A stretch of DNA of 20,264 nucleotides from a virus: positions 1 to 20,264 of IMG/VR virus record IMGVR_UViG_3300011430_000166; one strand, 5' to 3'. Positions 11,234-19,708 of this stretch are shown in pieces (the stretch's first letter is position 1; every line of letters starts with the position of its first letter). Under the pieces are notes generated by a model. It was not told where the DNA came from and did no database searches. It saw only the letters and a program-made list of their open reading frames with translations. Position numbers and translations under genes: made by a program.

Positions 11234-13093
11234 ATGATCGAGAACCACGTTCCCGTCCCGCTATCGGATTTCAATGGCCTCTTCGACAGAGGTCCCAATG
11301 AAGCCATTCCGATAGACCACTTTAAGGTTGCTCAGAACCTGAAGTATAAGCCTGCGAGCTTCTACACACGGGAGGGGTTCGTAACCGATATCACTGTTGG
11401 TCCGATCGTCAGGTTTCACGTCTACAAGATTACAGGTCAAGCGTCACGACTCATCTCCTTGGGTGGGGATAACACGCTTTACGATCTGACACTTAATGTG
11501 CCGATCCTTACTATTCCTGGGATGACAGACTTCTCAATGGAAACTTTCTTTGACCGGGCATACATTACTCCCCATAACGGGACTACTGGATTGCCCGGTC
11601 AATTCGTTCATTACTACACAGGAACAGGTGTCGCGCGCCCTGCGGGTGGGACTGGACCTGTTGCCGCCATCCCTATGGGGATTGCTCAGGGTGGTGCAGG
11701 ACGTATCGATAAGGGTATACATGCGTTTGCTGTAGCGTTCGAGACTGCAACAGGATTCATTACCCAGATGGGAGGATTCACTGGCATCGTCACGGACGGT
11801 GATAAAACAGTAGAATTATCTTCTATTCCTGTAGGTCCTGCTGGGACTGTGGCGAGAATCATCTTCAGCACAAAGAATGTCGCAGACCCTGCAACCGGGC
11901 TTTATAATTGGGACTATGCAAATGCTGAGTGGTTCTTCGCGGTCGACGGTAGAATACCAGACAACACCACTACAACTAAATCGCTCTCTTATTTTGACGC
12001 TGATCTCGTCGATCAGGCCGACTATATCCTTGAGCAATTATCCCAAATCCCTGCCGGGGTTGGGATTACCGCGTATCAAGGAAGCATGGTTGTCTGGGGA
12101 GAGGACGCTAACCAATCGACTGTTAGAGTTTCCAAAGCCGGAGAGCCAGAGTCTTTTAACTCTGTTGAAGGCTTCTTGCAGGTTGAGCCAGCGGTCGGGG
12201 GCGGCGTCAGAAACTGCGTTGAGTTCAGAAGTAGTCTCTATATCCTCAAAGCGCACCGATGCTACGTAACTCAAGCCAACGATAAAGAAGCTCTGTTCTG
12301 GCAGGTTCCTCTCCTCGACGGCTCAGTAGGCACTGAGTGTCACGGCGTGGCAAAGATATTCGAGCGCAATTCCAACACAGTGGACAAATATCTGGTTGCA
12401 TCCAGGCGTGGTCTACTGATGTTTACTGGCAACTTCGAGGAAGAGATTAGCTGGAAGGTAAAGGACATCTGGGAGCGCATTACAAAGATTCATTTCCAGA
12501 AGATCCAAGTTGTGATTGATCCAGACAATCAATACCTCTACGTTTCACTACCACTAGATGGCTCTATATATACCAATACACTTCTGTTTGGTGACTACAG
12601 TAACGGGCTAAATGCCAAGAACATCAAGTGGTCTACCTGGACATTTGTAACACCTCCATTATCAATGGAGCTTGAGGTCAACAACGTAACAAAGGAAAAC
12701 ATATTCAGGGTTGCGTTTCTTGGTGGTGATATCAAGAAACAACTCCCAACTGCGCACGATGATACTGGTCAAGCGATACCTACGATCTTCGAGACTGCAG
12801 AGCTTCCGGTAGATTCCAAGGGTGAGGTATTTCATCATGGTGGAGTGCGCTTTCGGGCGGTGGGTATCGGAAGGCTGAACCTCACGGTGACTACACTGGA
12901 TGGCGCTCAGGTCTACAACCTACCATCCATTCTACTACGGAGCGCGCCCGGCAGCTATCCGATGAGGACGTTCAACGCACAAAGTGAGAAGATAACTATC
13001 AAAGGTTCATTAGCTCTGTTTGGTGAATACATAGTTGTTACAAAGATGTGGGCTTTCGTTCGTCAGCTCTGGCTCACGAGGCCGTCGGAGTAA
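11234..13093 (+). CDS. Large tail protein, nozzle/stabilisation-like
   Basis: A 619-residue, beta-rich protein. Its N-terminus (PLSDFNGLFDRGPNEAIPID, then NLKYKPASFYTREGF) resembles tail nozzle or stabilisation proteins of short-tailed phages such as T7 gp12 and P22 gp10, which extend the connector and contact fibres. The following region has repeated short strands and Gly-rich turns, compatible with a propeller fold, and there is no lytic or protease signature. It begins three bases after the upstream stop with no clear Shine-Dalgarno site, so coupled translation is likely, and ends in a TAATG overlap with the next gene. The assignment is by resemblance and gene order. Confidence 0.62.
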   Translation: MIENHVPVPLSDFNGLFDRGPNEAIPIDHFKVAQNLKYKPASFYTREGFVTDITVGPIVRFHVYKITGQASRLISLGGDNTLYDLTLNVPILTIPGMTDFSMETFFDRAYITPHNGTTGLPGQFVHYYTGTGVARPAGGTGPVAAIPMGIAQGGAGRIDKGIHAFAVAFETATGFITQMGGFTGIVTDGDKTVELSSIPVGPAGTVARIIFSTKNVADPATGLYNWDYANAEWFFAVDGRIPDNTTTTKSLSYFDADLVDQADYILEQLSQIPAGVGITAYQGSMVVWGEDANQSTVRVSKAGEPESFNSVEGFLQVEPAVGGGVRNCVEFRSSLYILKAHRCYVTQANDKEALFWQVPLLDGSVGTECHGVAKIFERNSNTVDKYLVASRRGLLMFTGNFEEEISWKVKDIWERITKIHFQKIQVVIDPDNQYLYVSLPLDGSIYTNTLLFGDYSNGLNAKNIKWSTWTFVTPPLSMELEVNNVTKENIFRVAFLGGDIKKQLPTAHDDTGQAIPTIFETAELPVDSKGEVFHHGGVRFRAVGIGRLNLTVTTLDGAQVYNLPSILLRSAPGSYPMRTFNAQSEKITIKGSLALFGEYIVVTKMWAFVRQLWLTRPSE

Positions 13094-14523
13094 TGCCTAG
13101 CCATCCCGTAAAGCCGCAGCGCGACGCCCGGATTGATGCTCTGGGAAATGACGACAGGTCTGTCCTGATCCTGAAGGATATTCTCAGGGACTTCAACAGG
13201 GACATGCAGGTCGTCTATGAAACGATCTCACCAATCACAGAGGCACTGAAGCCTGTTACGGGTGGCGGGACAGGAACATCTCCAGAGCCTCCCAACTTCA
13301 CGGGTGTGGTTCGTCTGAATGGTATCTTCCTTTCGTGGGATGCGTCACCTAGCACTGCGGCGCGCACCTACGAAATTCGTCGTTCGGATGAATTGAACTG
13401 GGATACTGCGTTCTTTGTAACGCGCACCCCCTCTCTGAATATCCTTCTCGACCCGCTCCCTTCGGGAGCATATTACTTTTTGATTAAGACTATTGATTTT
13501 CTTGGTAACTACTCACCAAACTTTGCAAGTACAGTCATTACGATTCTTTCACCCTATGCTCCATTCATTACAGCAGCGGTAGTCGACAACAATGTCCTAC
13601 TGAATTGGACTACCCCTACAACGAGCTTCTCGATTGAACGATTTCGTATATATCGGGATAACAACCTGTATGGGGTGCTTCGTGCTACGTTTGTCTCGAC
13701 ATTCGAGACCGTGGCAGGAACCTACACATACAGTATTGAAGCAGTAGATATCGCAGGCAATACTGGTCCTAGAGGCTACGTTACAGCAGTAGTCAATACA
13801 CCTCCAGACTACCAGTTGTTAGATCGTGCTGTTAGCGATCTAGATGGCACGATGCACAATGTTGTGCGAACTAGCGTGCCGACCTTGATAGCTTGCGTAG
13901 ATACTGCGCCCACGTGGGAATTGCATTATACAACAAAGTCCTGGGATCAACCACAGGACCAGATAGATGCTGGTTATCCAATCTACATACAGCCTACAGT
14001 AACAACTGGGTGGTATGAGGAAATTATCGATTACGAGCTTGAGATTCAGAATGTTATTGTAACAGTTGTCTTTCAGATGGCACAGATAGTGCCTGAGGTT
14101 ACGGTAGTAGTTTACCTAGCCAGCTCAACTGATGGTATTGTCTATACGCCACTCGTGGCAGGATACTCTCAGTTCGTTCCATTATTCCGATACCTCAAGA
14201 TAAGGCTAGAGTTTACAGGCTCAAGTGATAAGGCGTTAGCCGAGCTGACGCTGATGGAAACTACCATCGACGTCAAGCGAGAGGTAGATGGTGGTGAGAT
14301 CGTAGCACTCGCCGGTGATACTCTTGGCACTCAGGTGCTATTCAATAAGGTATTCAAGGACGTCAACTCGATTACTTGTACAGCAGACTCAGTCGAACCA
14401 ATCATTATCATTTACGACTTTGTGGATATTCCAAATCCAGAGTTCTTTAAGGTTTTCGCACTAGATTCTACTGGCAATCGAGTGACATACCTTGTGTCCT
14501 GGAAAGCACGGGGTATTGTATAA
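13093..14523 (+). CDS. Tail protein with two FnIII-like domains
   Basis: I place the start at 13093, in the TAATG overlap, giving 476 residues; an in-frame ATG at 13048 would lie inside the preceding gene. After a charged helical N-terminus (residues about 1-55) and a Gly/Pro linker come two Ig-like fibronectin III-type repeats: about 66-155 (IFLSWDASPS, YEIRRSDE, LPSGAYYFLIKTIDFLGNYS) and 156-237 (VLLNWTTPTT, FRIYRDN, GTYTYSIEAVDIAGNTG). The second half is beta-rich and may include a jelly-roll-like carbohydrate-binding fold (WELHYTTKSW, then LRIKIRLEF-type strands near LFRYLKIRLEF). FnIII domains in phage tails often bind cell-surface sugars. The likely role is a tail hub or adhesion protein. 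Confidence 0.7.
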   Translation: MPSHPVKPQRDARIDALGNDDRSVLILKDILRDFNRDMQVVYETISPITEALKPVTGGGTGTSPEPPNFTGVVRLNGIFLSWDASPSTAARTYEIRRSDELNWDTAFFVTRTPSLNILLDPLPSGAYYFLIKTIDFLGNYSPNFASTVITILSPYAPFITAAVVDNNVLLNWTTPTTSFSIERFRIYRDNNLYGVLRATFVSTFETVAGTYTYSIEAVDIAGNTGPRGYVTAVVNTPPDYQLLDRAVSDLDGTMHNVVRTSVPTLIACVDTAPTWELHYTTKSWDQPQDQIDAGYPIYIQPTVTTGWYEEIIDYELEIQNVIVTVVFQMAQIVPEVTVVVYLASSTDGIVYTPLVAGYSQFVPLFRYLKIRLEFTGSSDKALAELTLMETTIDVKREVDGGEIVALAGDTLGTQVLFNKVFKDVNSITCTADSVEPIIIIYDFVDIPNPEFFKVFALDSTGNRVTYLVSWKARGIV

Positions 14524-15631: not shown

Positions 15632-15779
15632 GATTACGCTTGAAGAACTTTACCAGATCGTGGGTGAGCTAGAAGTCGTTAGGAGAAAACAACTGCTTCA
15701 AATCAGTGAGATGGCTGCTGAGATAACTCGACTGAGAGAAGAAAATGGCCGACTGGAACAAGCCGACAATAACGAGTAA
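15618..15779 (+). CDS. Small coiled-coil protein (53 aa)
   Basis: A short frame starting at ATG 15618 and ending TAA 15777-15779, with GGGGAG at 15608-15613 as ribosome binding site. It overlaps the previous gene by 14 bases and the following fibre gene by 35. Nearly the whole product is a charged amphipathic helix (ITLEELYQIVGELEVVRRKQ, then EITRLREENGRLEQ) with Leu/Ile spaced as heptads, so a parallel dimeric or trimeric coiled coil is likely. Phage fibres often use coiled coils and small helper proteins for trimerisation, so a fibre-assembly role is a reasonable guess. That both neighbours overlap it in other frames, as in the rest of this operon, and that it has a ribosome binding site support it as real. 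Confidence 0.62.
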   Translation: MGQFEITLEELYQIVGELEVVRRKQLLQISEMAAEITRLREENGRLEQADNNE

Positions 15780-16377
15780 TTACGTTGCTTTCGTCGATGA
15801 GCTAAAATCTCGTGACGCTGATGCTATAGCTCTGAATACAACTGCCACCCTGGGACTTCCTTATCAAGCTGTTAAACTTATTCGCGCCCCTGTTAAGTTT
15901 CAAGAGTGGGTTGGTGACAGATTTAGTGATCTTACACTTTCTGTCGAGGGTGGAGGAACTGGTGCAGCTTCAGCAGGTACAGCACGTTCCAATCTTGGTC
16001 TAGGTTCGATGGCACTCCAGAATTCAAATGCGGTTGCTATCACAGGTGGAACTGCTGCGAATATAGGACTGTCTGGAAATTGCTCTTATAATGGTAATGA
16101 CTTCCATATGTATGGGACGAGTGGGACTACTCTTATAGTCCACGGTCGCCCAGGTCAATATGCAGAGCATGTGGCTGGTGAGGGTGCAACAAATGGATCG
16201 TCTGGCCTACTCATTACAGCTGGTTGGGCAGGAGGGTATGCTCTTACAGTTCACAGAGCAGACTTCGCTGATCTTGGTCTTGTAGTTTCTGTTCCACCAA
16301 ACAATGGTCCTATGGTGTGCAATGCCCCTAGTCGGCTAGTCATTCCGTTTGGCGCGGATAAGTGGGCAGCCACGTAA
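15745..16377 (+). CDS. Tail fibre-like protein (210 aa)
   Basis: The N-terminus (MADWNKPTITSNYVAFVDEL, then KSRDADAIAL) matches the opening of many phage tail-fibre proteins. The segment VEGGGTGAASAGTARSNLGL followed by GSMALQNSNAVAITGG is the widely shared fibre shaft motif. The C-terminal half is Gly/Asn-rich beta sequence with three Cys-containing strands (GNCSYNGNDFH, PMVCNAPSR) that would form the tip. No peptidase or chaperone domain is visible. The start ATG overlaps the small coiled-coil gene by 35 bases. The stop TAA touches the ATG of the His-x-Asp protein with no gap, so these two are almost certainly co-translated. Confidence 0.8.
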   Translation: MADWNKPTITSNYVAFVDELKSRDADAIALNTTATLGLPYQAVKLIRAPVKFQEWVGDRFSDLTLSVEGGGTGAASAGTARSNLGLGSMALQNSNAVAITGGTAANIGLSGNCSYNGNDFHMYGTSGTTLIVHGRPGQYAEHVAGEGATNGSSGLLITAGWAGGYALTVHRADFADLGLVVSVPPNNGPMVCNAPSRLVIPFGADKWAAT

Positions 16378-17211
16378 ATGGCTAAGTATCAAGGTTCCTT
16401 GTGGATAGAAGGGAACAATCTACATTGGGTTGATGAGGCTGGTGTAGAGTGGGCTTGGCAGGGAATCTTTGTCAAGAATCAAACAGCCTATCCTGGATCT
16501 CTGTGGATAGAGAGTTACTACGTTTACTATGTCAATCAAGCTGGAAATCAAATTTACAGGACTGAAGCAGTTTGGAATGGTGAGTATCATGGTGTGCCGG
16601 GGTCTATCTGGGTAGAGGGTTCTTTCCTTCGGTGGATAGGTGGTGCTGAAGCTGCGGAAATGCACGCGCATCAAGATGTAGCACACATTGACGGTGGTGG
16701 TGCAGCCGCGCATGTAGATCATACGGATCAAGTGGCTCATACAGATGTCCCTCCTGGAGGACACTCAGATGTGCCACATAACGATTGGCATCAGGACTGG
16801 GGTCATGGTGACTCTCATACAGATCAACATAGTGATACTCCTCATACCGATGCACATAACGATATGCACGGGGATAACCCTGGTACTCTGAACCATAGTG
16901 ACTGCACCATTTACCAAAACGGTGAGTTCTACGCACATGGCGACTTCTACGACAACGTCAGCGTTGGTCCTTATAACTGTATATGGCACGACGATTCACC
17001 ACATCAAGATGTAGCTCATAACGATTCACATGCAGACGTGCCACATCATGACGACCCAGGAGCTAACGATCATCAGGATGTTCCACATTCGGATGTTCCA
17101 TCTGGTACTCATAGCGATGTGCCGCACTCTGATACTCCACATGGAGATCATTCAGACGCAGTTCATAACGATGCACCACATGTCGATAACCCAATCAATC
17201 TAGGTCCATGA
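16378..17211 (+). CDS. His-x-Asp repeat protein, probable substrate of adjacent radical SAM enzyme
   Basis: Length is 277 residues. Residues about 6-88 hold three copies of a ~35-residue beta motif beginning GSLWIEG, GSLWIES and GSIWVEG (at 6, 40 and 75), probably a small folded anchor. From His98 to Asp270 the chain is almost wholly His-x-Asp units, about 29 by my count (HQD, HTD, HSD, HND, HGD and others), four to five residues apart. They form two blocks separated by a spacer that contains the only two Cys (176 and 201). There is no hydrophobic core there, so the region would be extended or metal-bound rather than globular. It abuts the tail-fibre gene and overlaps the radical SAM gene by four bases. 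It could be a precursor modified in the manner of RiPPs, or a metal-binding fibre like the HxH-iron needle of T4 gp37. Its function is inferred. Confidence 0.8.
   Translation: MAKYQGSLWIEGNNLHWVDEAGVEWAWQGIFVKNQTAYPGSLWIESYYVYYVNQAGNQIYRTEAVWNGEYHGVPGSIWVEGSFLRWIGGAEAAEMHAHQDVAHIDGGGAAAHVDHTDQVAHTDVPPGGHSDVPHNDWHQDWGHGDSHTDQHSDTPHTDAHNDMHGDNPGTLNHSDCTIYQNGEFYAHGDFYDNVSVGPYNCIWHDDSPHQDVAHNDSHADVPHHDDPGANDHQDVPHSDVPSGTHSDVPHSDTPHGDHSDAVHNDAPHVDNPINLGP
16393..16641 (+). repeat. Three tandem GS(L/I)W(I/V)E repeats
   Basis: Three ~35-codon units encode GSLWIEG, GSLWIES and GSIWVEG at their starts, each followed by aromatic/hydrophobic strands. They lie before the His-x-Asp region and are clear at protein level. 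Confidence 0.75.
16669..17187 (+). repeat. Degenerate His-x-Asp coding repeat
   Basis: About 29 His-x-Asp codon triplets lie in this stretch, with a less repetitive interval near 16903-16980. Codons for His and Asp vary (CAT/CAC, GAT/GAC), so protein-level selection, not recent DNA slippage alone, maintains the pattern. The spacing is irregular and coding, so it is not a CRISPR array. Confidence 0.85.
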
Positions 17212-18383
17212 GTATAGAGTATCTACCTGTCGGGATTGCCTGCAATATCTCCTGTGGCTATTGCTATCAAGACCCTATGCGTGAGGCAGGGAACATCAAT
17301 GTTCCAAGGGACTGGTCTAAGGTCAAGGCACAACTTGAAAGACTAGGTTCTGACTTCTCGGTCTTCGGCGGTGAGCCTTTGCTCGCGCCCGTCGAACACC
17401 TCGAAGAGGTCTGGGCTTATGGATTTGAGAAGTTTGGTCGTAATGGGATTCAAACAAACGGGTCGTTGATTACCGATAAGCACATAGAACTATTCTCTCG
17501 ATACGCAGTGCAAGTAGGTATCTCGATCGATGGTCCTGGCAAGATGAATCGAGTTCGCTGCACTGATGAACTGACAGAGAAAACTGAAGAGGCCATTTAC
17601 AAGCTATTCAAGCAAGGTATCAATACCTCTATCATTTGCACCATACATAGGGGGAACAATGATATTCCTGCTTTGTGTAACTGGTTCGATCATCTTAGTA
17701 GGGGTGGTATCAGGTATCTTAATCTACACGAGATGGAAATCGATTGTGGAAGACGTGATCTCGCCCTCTCCGAAGAAAGACAAATCGAAACCTTCCTAGA
17801 ACTCTATGAGTGGTCGAAGACAGCAAAGATACAAGTTGCGCCCTTCATTGACATCAAGAGACTTCTAACTGAAGAACAGCCTCAGGTATCGTGCGTGTGG
17901 AATAGTTGCGACCCAATTACAACCGCTGCGGTTCAAGGAGTTTCTCCAAATGGTGTTATGTCAAATTGTGGTAGAACTAACAAGGACGGAGTCAACTGGG
18001 TCAAAGCCGACCGACCAGGAAATGAGAGATATATTGGACTTTATTACACGCCTCAAGAGCATGGTGGTTGTAGAGATTGTAAATACTTCGCTTTCTGCAA
18101 GGGTCACTGTCCAGGCACATCAATTGACGGCGACTGGAGAAACCGCACAGTTAATTGCAGACTCTGGTACTCTCTCTTTGAGAAGATTGAATTAGATCTA
18201 CGTAGTGATAAAAGTGTAAGAATCCTCTGTTGTGATAAGAAGCAGAAGATTGTCGATAGGATACTAGCAGGTGTTCATCCGGTGAACAGCCACGGTGATA
18301 CTCCTCACGGGGATTCTCATGGGGATCATACAGATGGTATTAGAGCTACAATTCTAACGGAGAAACCAGAGTGGGCAAACTAG
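17208..18383 (+). CDS. Radical SAM/SPASM enzyme with C-terminal His-x-Asp tail
   Basis: A 391-residue SAM-dependent radical enzyme. The 4Fe-4S site is CNISCGYC at residues 12-19 (CxxxCxxC), followed by the SAM-contacting FGGEP at 53-57 and GISIDGP near 106. The C-terminal SPASM signature is C288-x2-C291-x5-C297-x3-C301, with further Cys at 229, 234, 254 and 317 that could complete two auxiliary iron-sulphur clusters. Enzymes of this type modify peptides or proteins. The ATGA overlap with the His-x-Asp gene makes that protein the obvious candidate substrate. An unusual feature is a short His-x-Asp tail at 362-376 (HGDTPHGDSHGDHTD), so the enzyme may modify itself, or the tail may be a recognition tag. 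The chemistry is not determined by the sequence. Confidence 0.9.
   Translation: MSIEYLPVGIACNISCGYCYQDPMREAGNINVPRDWSKVKAQLERLGSDFSVFGGEPLLAPVEHLEEVWAYGFEKFGRNGIQTNGSLITDKHIELFSRYAVQVGISIDGPGKMNRVRCTDELTEKTEEAIYKLFKQGINTSIICTIHRGNNDIPALCNWFDHLSRGGIRYLNLHEMEIDCGRRDLALSEERQIETFLELYEWSKTAKIQVAPFIDIKRLLTEEQPQVSCVWNSCDPITTAAVQGVSPNGVMSNCGRTNKDGVNWVKADRPGNERYIGLYYTPQEHGGCRDCKYFAFCKGHCPGTSIDGDWRNRTVNCRLWYSLFEKIELDLRSDKSVRILCCDKKQKIVDRILAGVHPVNSHGDTPHGDSHGDHTDGIRATILTEKPEWAN
18291..18335 (+). repeat. His-x-Asp repeat tail inside the radical SAM gene
   Basis: Four His-x-Asp units at residues 362, 367, 371 and 374 of the enzyme, coded like those of the upstream repeat protein: both contain GTGATACTCCTCA-type stretches. 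This suggests a shared origin or recombination between the two genes. Confidence 0.8.
18359..18362 (+). promoter_or_regulatory. Ribosome binding site for a GTG start
   Basis: GGAG ends eight bases before GTG at 18371 inside the radical SAM gene. It supports the GTG as the start of the methyltransferase fusion gene, as there is no near in-frame ATG. Confidence 0.7.
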
Positions 18384-19708
18384 AAAGATTAGACTTTACA
18401 ATTCCAGATTTCCTTCGGACTGTGTGGGTGTCGGAGCATGCAAGGGAATACTGGGAGCCTAAGATTAGAAGTATCTCTGCAAGTTGGCATGCTATCGAGC
18501 GCCTCACGCTATTGCAGGGTATGCGTCCCGGTGTGTTGCAGAGCGTCACACCTGAAGAGCTACCAGATGTACAGAACTGGGCGCTCGCCAAAAACATTCC
18601 GATGGCGATCGTTGGGTTGGACGGCGCGACAGAAAGCTACGGTAATGCGTCGATACCCTACGTAGCAGGAGAGAGATTTACCTACAGAGTGTATTTTGGT
18701 CTAGAACCTGAGAAGTTTATAGATGCTTGGAAAGCTCAGGCTGACCTTGCTATTGGTCATATGCTTGGTTTTCCAGATTGTTGTACTGCATCCTTTGTTA
18801 CGCATTGGAAGAAAGAAGGATGGCGAGACCTAACGATCCATTCGTATGGTCAGCCTCTTCAGAGAAACTTGATGTATAACAATGTTCTACTACGGCACAT
18901 TGGTATACGTGGAGTCTTTCATCTTCCTTGTAGTGTAAACTGTCAGGAGAGCGTGAAGATAGGTGCGAAGATCATTGGCGTCATGATGCATACAGAGGGT
19001 CTGATGATGCCTGCGGATTGGTTGCAGCAGCTACTCGTTATGCCTATGGAGTGGACTTCTCTCCATGGTGTAGCGATGGTAACTACTCCTATCCTCAAGA
19101 CCATCTACGCATCTGATCCCTTGCCTACCAAGGCTACGTTACGACTGGACAGTGAGCTATACCCTGCACATGGTGCGAGCGGGAATAAGTTTCCATTCCA
19201 GAACGTCGTGACATCTCGATTGTTTTTCAACGGCTTCAAATCCAAATCGGATATGAGCGCGGCGCACTCGTTCATCGTCTCGGTCCTATCAGATGCTAAG
19301 GTTCATGGCAAGGTTCTAGACCTAGGTTGTGGTAATGGCATACTCCTCAAGAGGATTCAGGCCGCGCATCCAAATACGAAATTGCTTGGTGTCGATTCAA
19401 ATACGGCAGTCATCGAGGACATAGTTCCGGGTGTCATTCCCTACTGTTCTGACATCTTTAGCTTCCGCGAGTGGGAGAAAGTAGATCTAGTTCTGCTCTC
19501 GTCCCAACGCCTATTCGAGGTTGATCCTTACAAGGGTACAGCCCTTATGGAGGTGATTTCACAGTACTCAAAACGACTACTTCTCTACAACTATGGTGAA
19601 TGGCGTGAGGGTCTAGAGTACTACACAGATCCATATTTCACTGTAGTGACAGCAGTCAAGAACGACAATTACAGAGCGTTACTATTGGAGAGCAAACATG
19701 CCATTTGA
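18371..19708 (+). CDS. DUF483-like domain fused to a class I methyltransferase
   Basis: The gene starts with GTG at 18371, 13 bases inside the radical SAM gene, and encodes 445 residues. The N-terminal ~260 residues contain GHMLGFPDCCTASF (Cys137-Cys138) and HLPCSVNC (Cys187, Cys191), the hallmarks of DUF483-like proteins of unknown function. The Cys residues could bind metal or be redox active. The C-terminal ~145 residues form a Rossmann methyltransferase: VLDLGCGNG at 315-323 is motif I, LGVDSN at 339-344 places the acidic ribose-binding residue, and later VDLVLL strands follow. A second SAM-dependent enzyme in the same overlapping operon as the radical SAM protein suggests joint modification of the His-x-Asp protein, but its target is unknown. 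Confidence 0.8.
   Translation: MGKLERLDFTIPDFLRTVWVSEHAREYWEPKIRSISASWHAIERLTLLQGMRPGVLQSVTPEELPDVQNWALAKNIPMAIVGLDGATESYGNASIPYVAGERFTYRVYFGLEPEKFIDAWKAQADLAIGHMLGFPDCCTASFVTHWKKEGWRDLTIHSYGQPLQRNLMYNNVLLRHIGIRGVFHLPCSVNCQESVKIGAKIIGVMMHTEGLMMPADWLQQLLVMPMEWTSLHGVAMVTTPILKTIYASDPLPTKATLRLDSELYPAHGASGNKFPFQNVVTSRLFFNGFKSKSDMSAAHSFIVSVLSDAKVHGKVLDLGCGNGILLKRIQAAHPNTKLLGVDSNTAVIEDIVPGVIPYCSDIFSFREWEKVDLVLLSSQRLFEVDPYKGTALMEVISQYSKRLLLYNYGEWREGLEYYTDPYFTVVTAVKNDNYRALLLESKHAI

Follow-up and report, generated by a model that had tools for sequence, protein, structure and literature searches.

A predicted radical SAM/SPASM enzyme in the tail module of a virus carries near its C-terminus a short run of the His-x-Asp (HxD) motif, the same motif that is repeated in the protein encoded directly upstream. 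This C-terminal segment—hereafter the tag—is selectively conserved, predicted to be disordered, and associated with HxD arrays. It recurs in dozens of widely differing phages in which the two genes are likewise paired. Judging from their sequences, the enzyme and the repeat protein probably form one cross-linking system. We see about even chances that the cassette serves tailed phages as a protein-modifying system, in which the enzyme would cross-link the array of the tail protein and the tag would be a substrate-like peptide used for docking or itself modified. A maturase that bears the motif of its own substrate, conserved in very divergent phages, offers a handle on the multi-site modification of one protein.

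The window, i.e., the whole stretch of DNA analyzed here, is a virus record of 20,264 bases, the right half of which is a tail module. Three genes, encoding the HxD repeat protein, the radical SAM enzyme, and a DUF483–methyltransferase protein, form a cassette whose neighbors overlap by a few bases. The features are as follows.

13048–14523, plus strand: tail protein J-like, matching PHROG 1727 (tail protein and host specificity, 2.2e-15); context.
15745–16377, plus strand: tail-fibre-like protein directly 5' of the HxD gene, with PHROG tail fibre matches at ~1e-4; context for a virion role.
16378–17211, plus strand: HxD repeat protein, 277 aa with 30 HxD, the presumed substrate; its gene and that of the enzyme share 4 nt.
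16378–16668, plus strand: N-terminal domain of the repeat protein with three GSxWIEG beta repeats; confident all-beta model, residues 1–98.
16669–17193, plus strand: His-x-Asp array; modeled with low confidence (pLDDT ~40).
17208–18383, plus strand: radical SAM/SPASM protein, 391 aa, the predicted maturase of the HxD array; Pfam Radical_SAM 2.1e-15.
17241–17264, plus strand: CX3CX2C radical SAM cluster motif (C12, C16, C19), invariant in a 47-sequence alignment.
17892–18158, plus strand: SPASM cysteines C229, C234, C254, C288, C291, C297, C301, and C317, invariant in 47 sequences.
18291–18335, plus strand: HxD tag, residues 362–376, C-terminal to the SPASM cysteines; predicted disordered.
18371–19708, plus strand: DUF483 domain fused to a class I methyltransferase domain, the third cassette gene; Pfam DUF483 8.8e-06, MTS 5.3e-06.

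Both cysteine motif sets—the SPASM set includes C288-x2-C291-x5-C297-x3-C301 (CX2CX5CX3C) plus C317—and the fold identify the enzyme as a radical SAM/SPASM protein-modifying enzyme. Its closest folds in Foldseek are peptide-modifying SPASM enzymes, with matches to anSME, ChlB, CteB, SkfB, SuiB, and TigE at E-values down to 8e-14. Against NCBIfam, 56 models matched and, among the matches listed, none reaches its cutoff, so that membership in a curated radical SAM family is rejected. The top-scoring models are cyclophane formers, all far under their cutoffs: AmcB, the best match, with 83.1 of 425 bits, YhhB with 51.8 of 445, and GrrM with 46.8 of 310. The enzyme shares its fold and SPASM type with the anaerobic sulfatase-maturating enzyme (4k39), which likewise acts on a protein, but identity is only ~20%. 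Identity as such a maturase is not supported either, as the score of 70.5 of 349 bits stays under the family cutoff and a Pfam scan of the adjacent proteins found no sulfatase partner. The enzyme thus appears to work like a triceptide maturase and is placed in no known family.

The tag follows the SPASM region and reads HGDTPHGDSHGDHTD, exactly as the earlier note had given it. All four HxD motifs of the enzyme fall within these 15 residues, a density seen in 0 of 100,000 composition-preserving shuffles (three motifs: 16 of 100,000), and a chance origin is hence rejected. In the AlphaFold model, residues 359–380 are the sole segment with a pLDDT below 50 at a mean of 86; the models are of single chains, and the predicted disorder does not show where the tag binds. 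A viral scan returned eight loci, one with an enzyme identical to that of the window and seven with enzymes at 58 to 79% identity. The comparison of homologues proposed in the earlier note favors conservation: all seven distinct homologues keep the tag, and at each of the eight loci an HxD repeat protein is encoded directly upstream. In this first alignment, H362, G363, D364, P366, H367, G368, D369, H371, G372, and D373 are invariant, and differences are confined to spacer residues.

The middle residue is Gly in 153 of 262 tag motifs versus 370 of 2126 array motifs, and tags keep Asp (21/21) even where arrays mix Asn and Asp; for both reasons, recent copying from the array cannot account for the tag. 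Extreme tags count 14 HxD beyond the enzyme core (locus L212) and 24 in a fused radical SAM–DUF483 protein of phage L073. In the group of loci L066 and L058, the enzyme ends in HADHTDxTGxY, and the adjoining small proteins of 128 to 133 aa (L066, 6303–6704; L058, 3300–3686) carry the module HADHxDxTGxY twice. Therefore, the tag can also occur outside the enzyme.

Taken together, the tag appears to be a selected, flexible, and substrate-like segment with a putative role as a docking or self-modified peptide. In the mechanism that we propose, the sites of enzyme action would be the aromatic-x-Asp/Asn motifs, His-x-Asp in most cases, of the long disordered array encoded just upstream. Most likely, the aromatic ring would be joined to the beta carbon two places on, giving a three-residue cyclophane and thereby stiffening the array. 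The HGD tag, in turn, would most likely insert into its own enzyme molecule or a sister one, at the active site or in the peptide channel, where it might be modified itself, keep the enzyme on long arrays over repeated rounds of modification, or both. Alternatively, the tag might be an autoinhibitory pseudosubstrate that stays unmodified and fills the active site until an array takes its place, so that SAM is spared and radical damage kept low. Such a role would suit a substrate-like and flexible segment that is probably long enough to fold back and richer in HGD than the arrays. Yet the motif of the tag retains every feature of a modifiable site, and untagged relatives exist, and we thus regard autoinhibition as doubtful. 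Sequence alone cannot separate docking, self-modification, and autoinhibition.

The presumed substrate combines a folded N-terminal domain with the disordered array. For the fold of this domain, no confident match was found among solved structures; its sole good viral structural match, of 342 aa, may be the repeat protein of Thermus phage phiMa, and GSxWIEG repeats recur in the proteins of phages phiMa and Cumys. Across the arrays, His stands two positions before Asp or Asn 2776 times. Where another residue takes this position, Tyr (5.1-fold), Phe (5.3-fold), and Trp (4.0-fold) are enriched over background, and no further residue exceeds 1.6-fold. Asn replaces Asp in the arrays of L007, L020, L022, and L024, and phage L073 repeats Phe-Val-Asn. 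The arrays thus seem better described as aromatic-x-Asp/Asn than as His-x-Asp. In Fulvivirga marina (L150), a 1044-aa protein encoded 5' of the radical SAM gene ends in His-x-Lys repeats (HIKAPHIKHIKAPHIKHVKLPHVK), in which Lys is a possible variant acceptor residue.

This pattern resembles that of triceptides, whose SPASM enzymes bond an aromatic ring to the beta carbon of the second residue after it; the characterized motifs cross-linked by SPASM enzymes are Tyr-x-Asp, His-x-Ala, His-x-Arg, and Trp-x-Asp/Asn (PMC11002830). Like the triceptide maturases of the 3-CyFE type (OscB/GrrM, XncB, YxdB, HaaB, and YhhB), the enzyme of the window is encoded beside a protein rich in aromatic-x-(Asp/Asn), with Tyr, Phe, and Trp enriched as substitutes for His. 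On the contrary, its substrate would be a phage tail-like protein of 277 aa with ~30 sites and a folded N-terminal domain instead of a short leader-core peptide; in addition, the enzyme itself bears the motif and scores far under the family cutoffs. His-x-Asp is absent from the pairs listed in the triceptide review (PMC11002830), and it is hereby a predicted cross-link in a large number of proteins from phages and bacteria.

It is quite unlikely that the HxD motifs of array and tag merely bind a metal such as iron, nickel, or zinc, with the tag feeding or buffering cluster iron and the enzyme acting elsewhere. In favor of metal binding, the fibre tips of some phages bind metal ions through HxH motifs, both His and Asp coordinate metals well, and the tags hold Asp where arrays use Asn. 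Against metal binding, a missing His is replaced by Tyr, Phe, and Trp and not by Cys, Glu, or Asp, and neither the repeated Phe-Val-Asn of L073 nor the His-x-Lys repeats of the Fulvivirga neighbor fit. Metal binding also leaves the pairing of the arrays with a peptide-type SPASM enzyme unexplained. Since aromatic-x-(Asp/Asn) is the triceptide signature, cross-linking is favored over plain metal binding.

The array protein may be part of the virion. We infer this location from the gene position, the upstream matches to tail families, and array fusions: in L044, L048, L035, and L069, the same position encodes large proteins to which an array is fused. A further-reaching version appears improbable to us. 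In it, a class of tail proteins widespread among phages would be stapled, at dozens of aromatic-x-Asp sites, by the phage's own radical SAM enzyme, which would also staple its own HGD tag and thereby stay on the tail fibre or become part of it. If true, the maturase would tag itself, and the stapled proteins would be the first virion material with heavy cyclophane cross-linking. Separately, fibre proteins of L215, L237, and L243 are collagen-like (GPPGPPG) and contain an HxD run; in the 104-kb record of L243, a tagged enzyme is encoded elsewhere in the same genome.

The three-gene module itself is known. In 2024, it was described—at least in the main text of that report—as an "rSAM module" of Thermus phage Cumys with unknown function, a DNA modification was suggested, and the third gene was left uncharacterized (PMC11437467). 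As far as this main text goes, the HxD repeats and the enzyme tag are unmentioned, and the word histidine is absent (PMC11437467). New here are the HxD array, the aromatic-x-Asp character of its motifs, and the tag that is conserved on the enzyme. The enzymes of Thermus phages phiMa, Cumys, and phiLo are ~45% identical to that of the window (tblastn). Their tags read HGDYTDHGDAPHGDHWDG in phiMa and Cumys and comprise nine HxD in phiLo, and their HxD proteins hold 53, 54, and 72 motifs for phiMa, Cumys, and phiLo, respectively. The cassettes of Cumys, phiMa, and the window each unite a radical SAM enzyme, DUF483, and a third conserved gene, in one order and with a GSxWIEG and HxD protein and an HGD tag. 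They differ in that DUF483 stands without a methyltransferase in the Thermus phages, where it is a separate gene, and is fused to a methyltransferase in the window. Elsewhere, in long radical SAM proteins of many bacterial genomes, DUF483 appears fused to the radical SAM enzyme. A literature search on radical SAM combined with phage tail found nothing further.

A role of the radical SAM/DUF483 module in modifying DNA, the suggestion made for Cumys, appears very improbable to us. Cyanobacterial homologues located near deazapurine genes, as given in the main text of PMC11437467, speak in its favor; but the structural neighbors of the enzyme are peptide modifiers, and the third gene encodes an HxD array whose occurrence follows that of the enzyme. 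The module of the Thermus phages is thus pointed toward the modification of protein and not of DNA, and Cumys, an isolated phage carrying the cassette, makes a direct test possible. In Cumys, the enzyme is gp12 and the HxD protein gp13.

In wider scans, 76 viral and 75 bacterial loci were collected, near-copies were removed, and the tag was defined from the alignment. Of 50 tagged enzymes with more than 1.5 kb of upstream sequence, 49 have an HxD-array neighbor, compared with 32 of 56 untagged enzymes; the contig of the one tagged enzyme without such a neighbor, L014, is only 8 kb long. The median array holds 35 motifs beside tagged and 14.5 beside untagged enzymes. On the tree, the tag changes state seven times, and a single clade rich in phages holds most tagged enzymes (48 of 56 rows). 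A tree-corrected test of tag versus neighbor has only three supported independent pairs (median p 1), for which no significance can be claimed.

The association was also approached from the array, with a DNA pattern of four spaced H.D motifs searched in viral contigs independently of the enzyme; the two samples overlap in part (e.g., the contigs of L175, L180, L198, and L211). At least 34 loci show dense HxD frames, and at least 16 of these have a relative of the enzyme within the locus. Among the matches listed, the whole records of six other loci yielded two further relatives, and twelve of the loci then left were, by inspection, repeats of a simple tandem kind or out of frame. Of 14 intact enzymes among the matches listed, 13 have at least two HxD in the tag, and the other one (L206) has a single PHGD. 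Several of these enzymes, e.g., those of L177, L229, L226, and L289, are only ~28 to 35% identical to their nearest query. As tags recur in such divergent enzymes, the tag is common in phage enzymes of this kind. With both samples, the proposal of the earlier note that the tag ties the two genes more strongly than adjacency alone is well supported. A haloarchaeal pair resembling radical SAM/DUF483 has neither an HxD neighbor nor a tag.

The tag is not necessary, which counts against our model: the untagged enzymes that retain HxD neighbors are mostly cellular and include one phage subclade (L040–L061). This subclade has lost the tag and kept the HxD protein wherever the flank shows, with 62 motifs in the neighbor of L061, and its gene order differs, running from HxD protein over DUF483 protein and a protein of 180 to 210 aa to the enzyme. 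Hence, part of the case that the earlier note had named as refuting—the same neighbor without a tag—does occur, in L061 and many cellular enzymes, so that not every such pair requires the tag. A universal need for the tag was rejected by L061, L053, and the cellular loci.

That the tag came from the adjoining repeat gene through recombination or slippage and is merely incidental, for which short 79% DNA matches between tag and array and its absence from some relatives could be adduced, is next to negligible in our view, since its residues are conserved in all close homologues while codons drift silently (4 to 7 of 12 codons between the window and each homologue), since it recurs in very divergent enzymes and across a broad phage clade, and since its composition is unlike that of the array. 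The past fusion or recombination considered in the earlier note is thus rejected as a mere relic. The sequences of the codon comparison were chosen by the pattern HGD.PHGD.HGD, and the invariance of the residues therefore rests on the independent alignment.

Among the cellular relatives, enzymes adjoining large proteins with C-terminal HxD runs are without a tag. Such bacterial proteins of 890 to 1400 aa are found in L094, L105, L115, L121, L127, and L098; those of L094, L105, L115, and L121 have no Pfam match, and that of L098 has tectonin/tachylectin domains. In L140–L157 (Bradyrhizobium and others), untagged enzymes without an HxD neighbor are clustered with two other radical-SAM-like genes. 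In L112 and L164, leader-like peptides of 79 and 99 aa whose last residues are VVHIDI or VVHIDF are encoded beside untagged relatives, ~2.7 to 3.0 kb downstream of the radical SAM start and near two more radical-SAM-like proteins; they look like RiPP precursors with a single C-terminal HxD.
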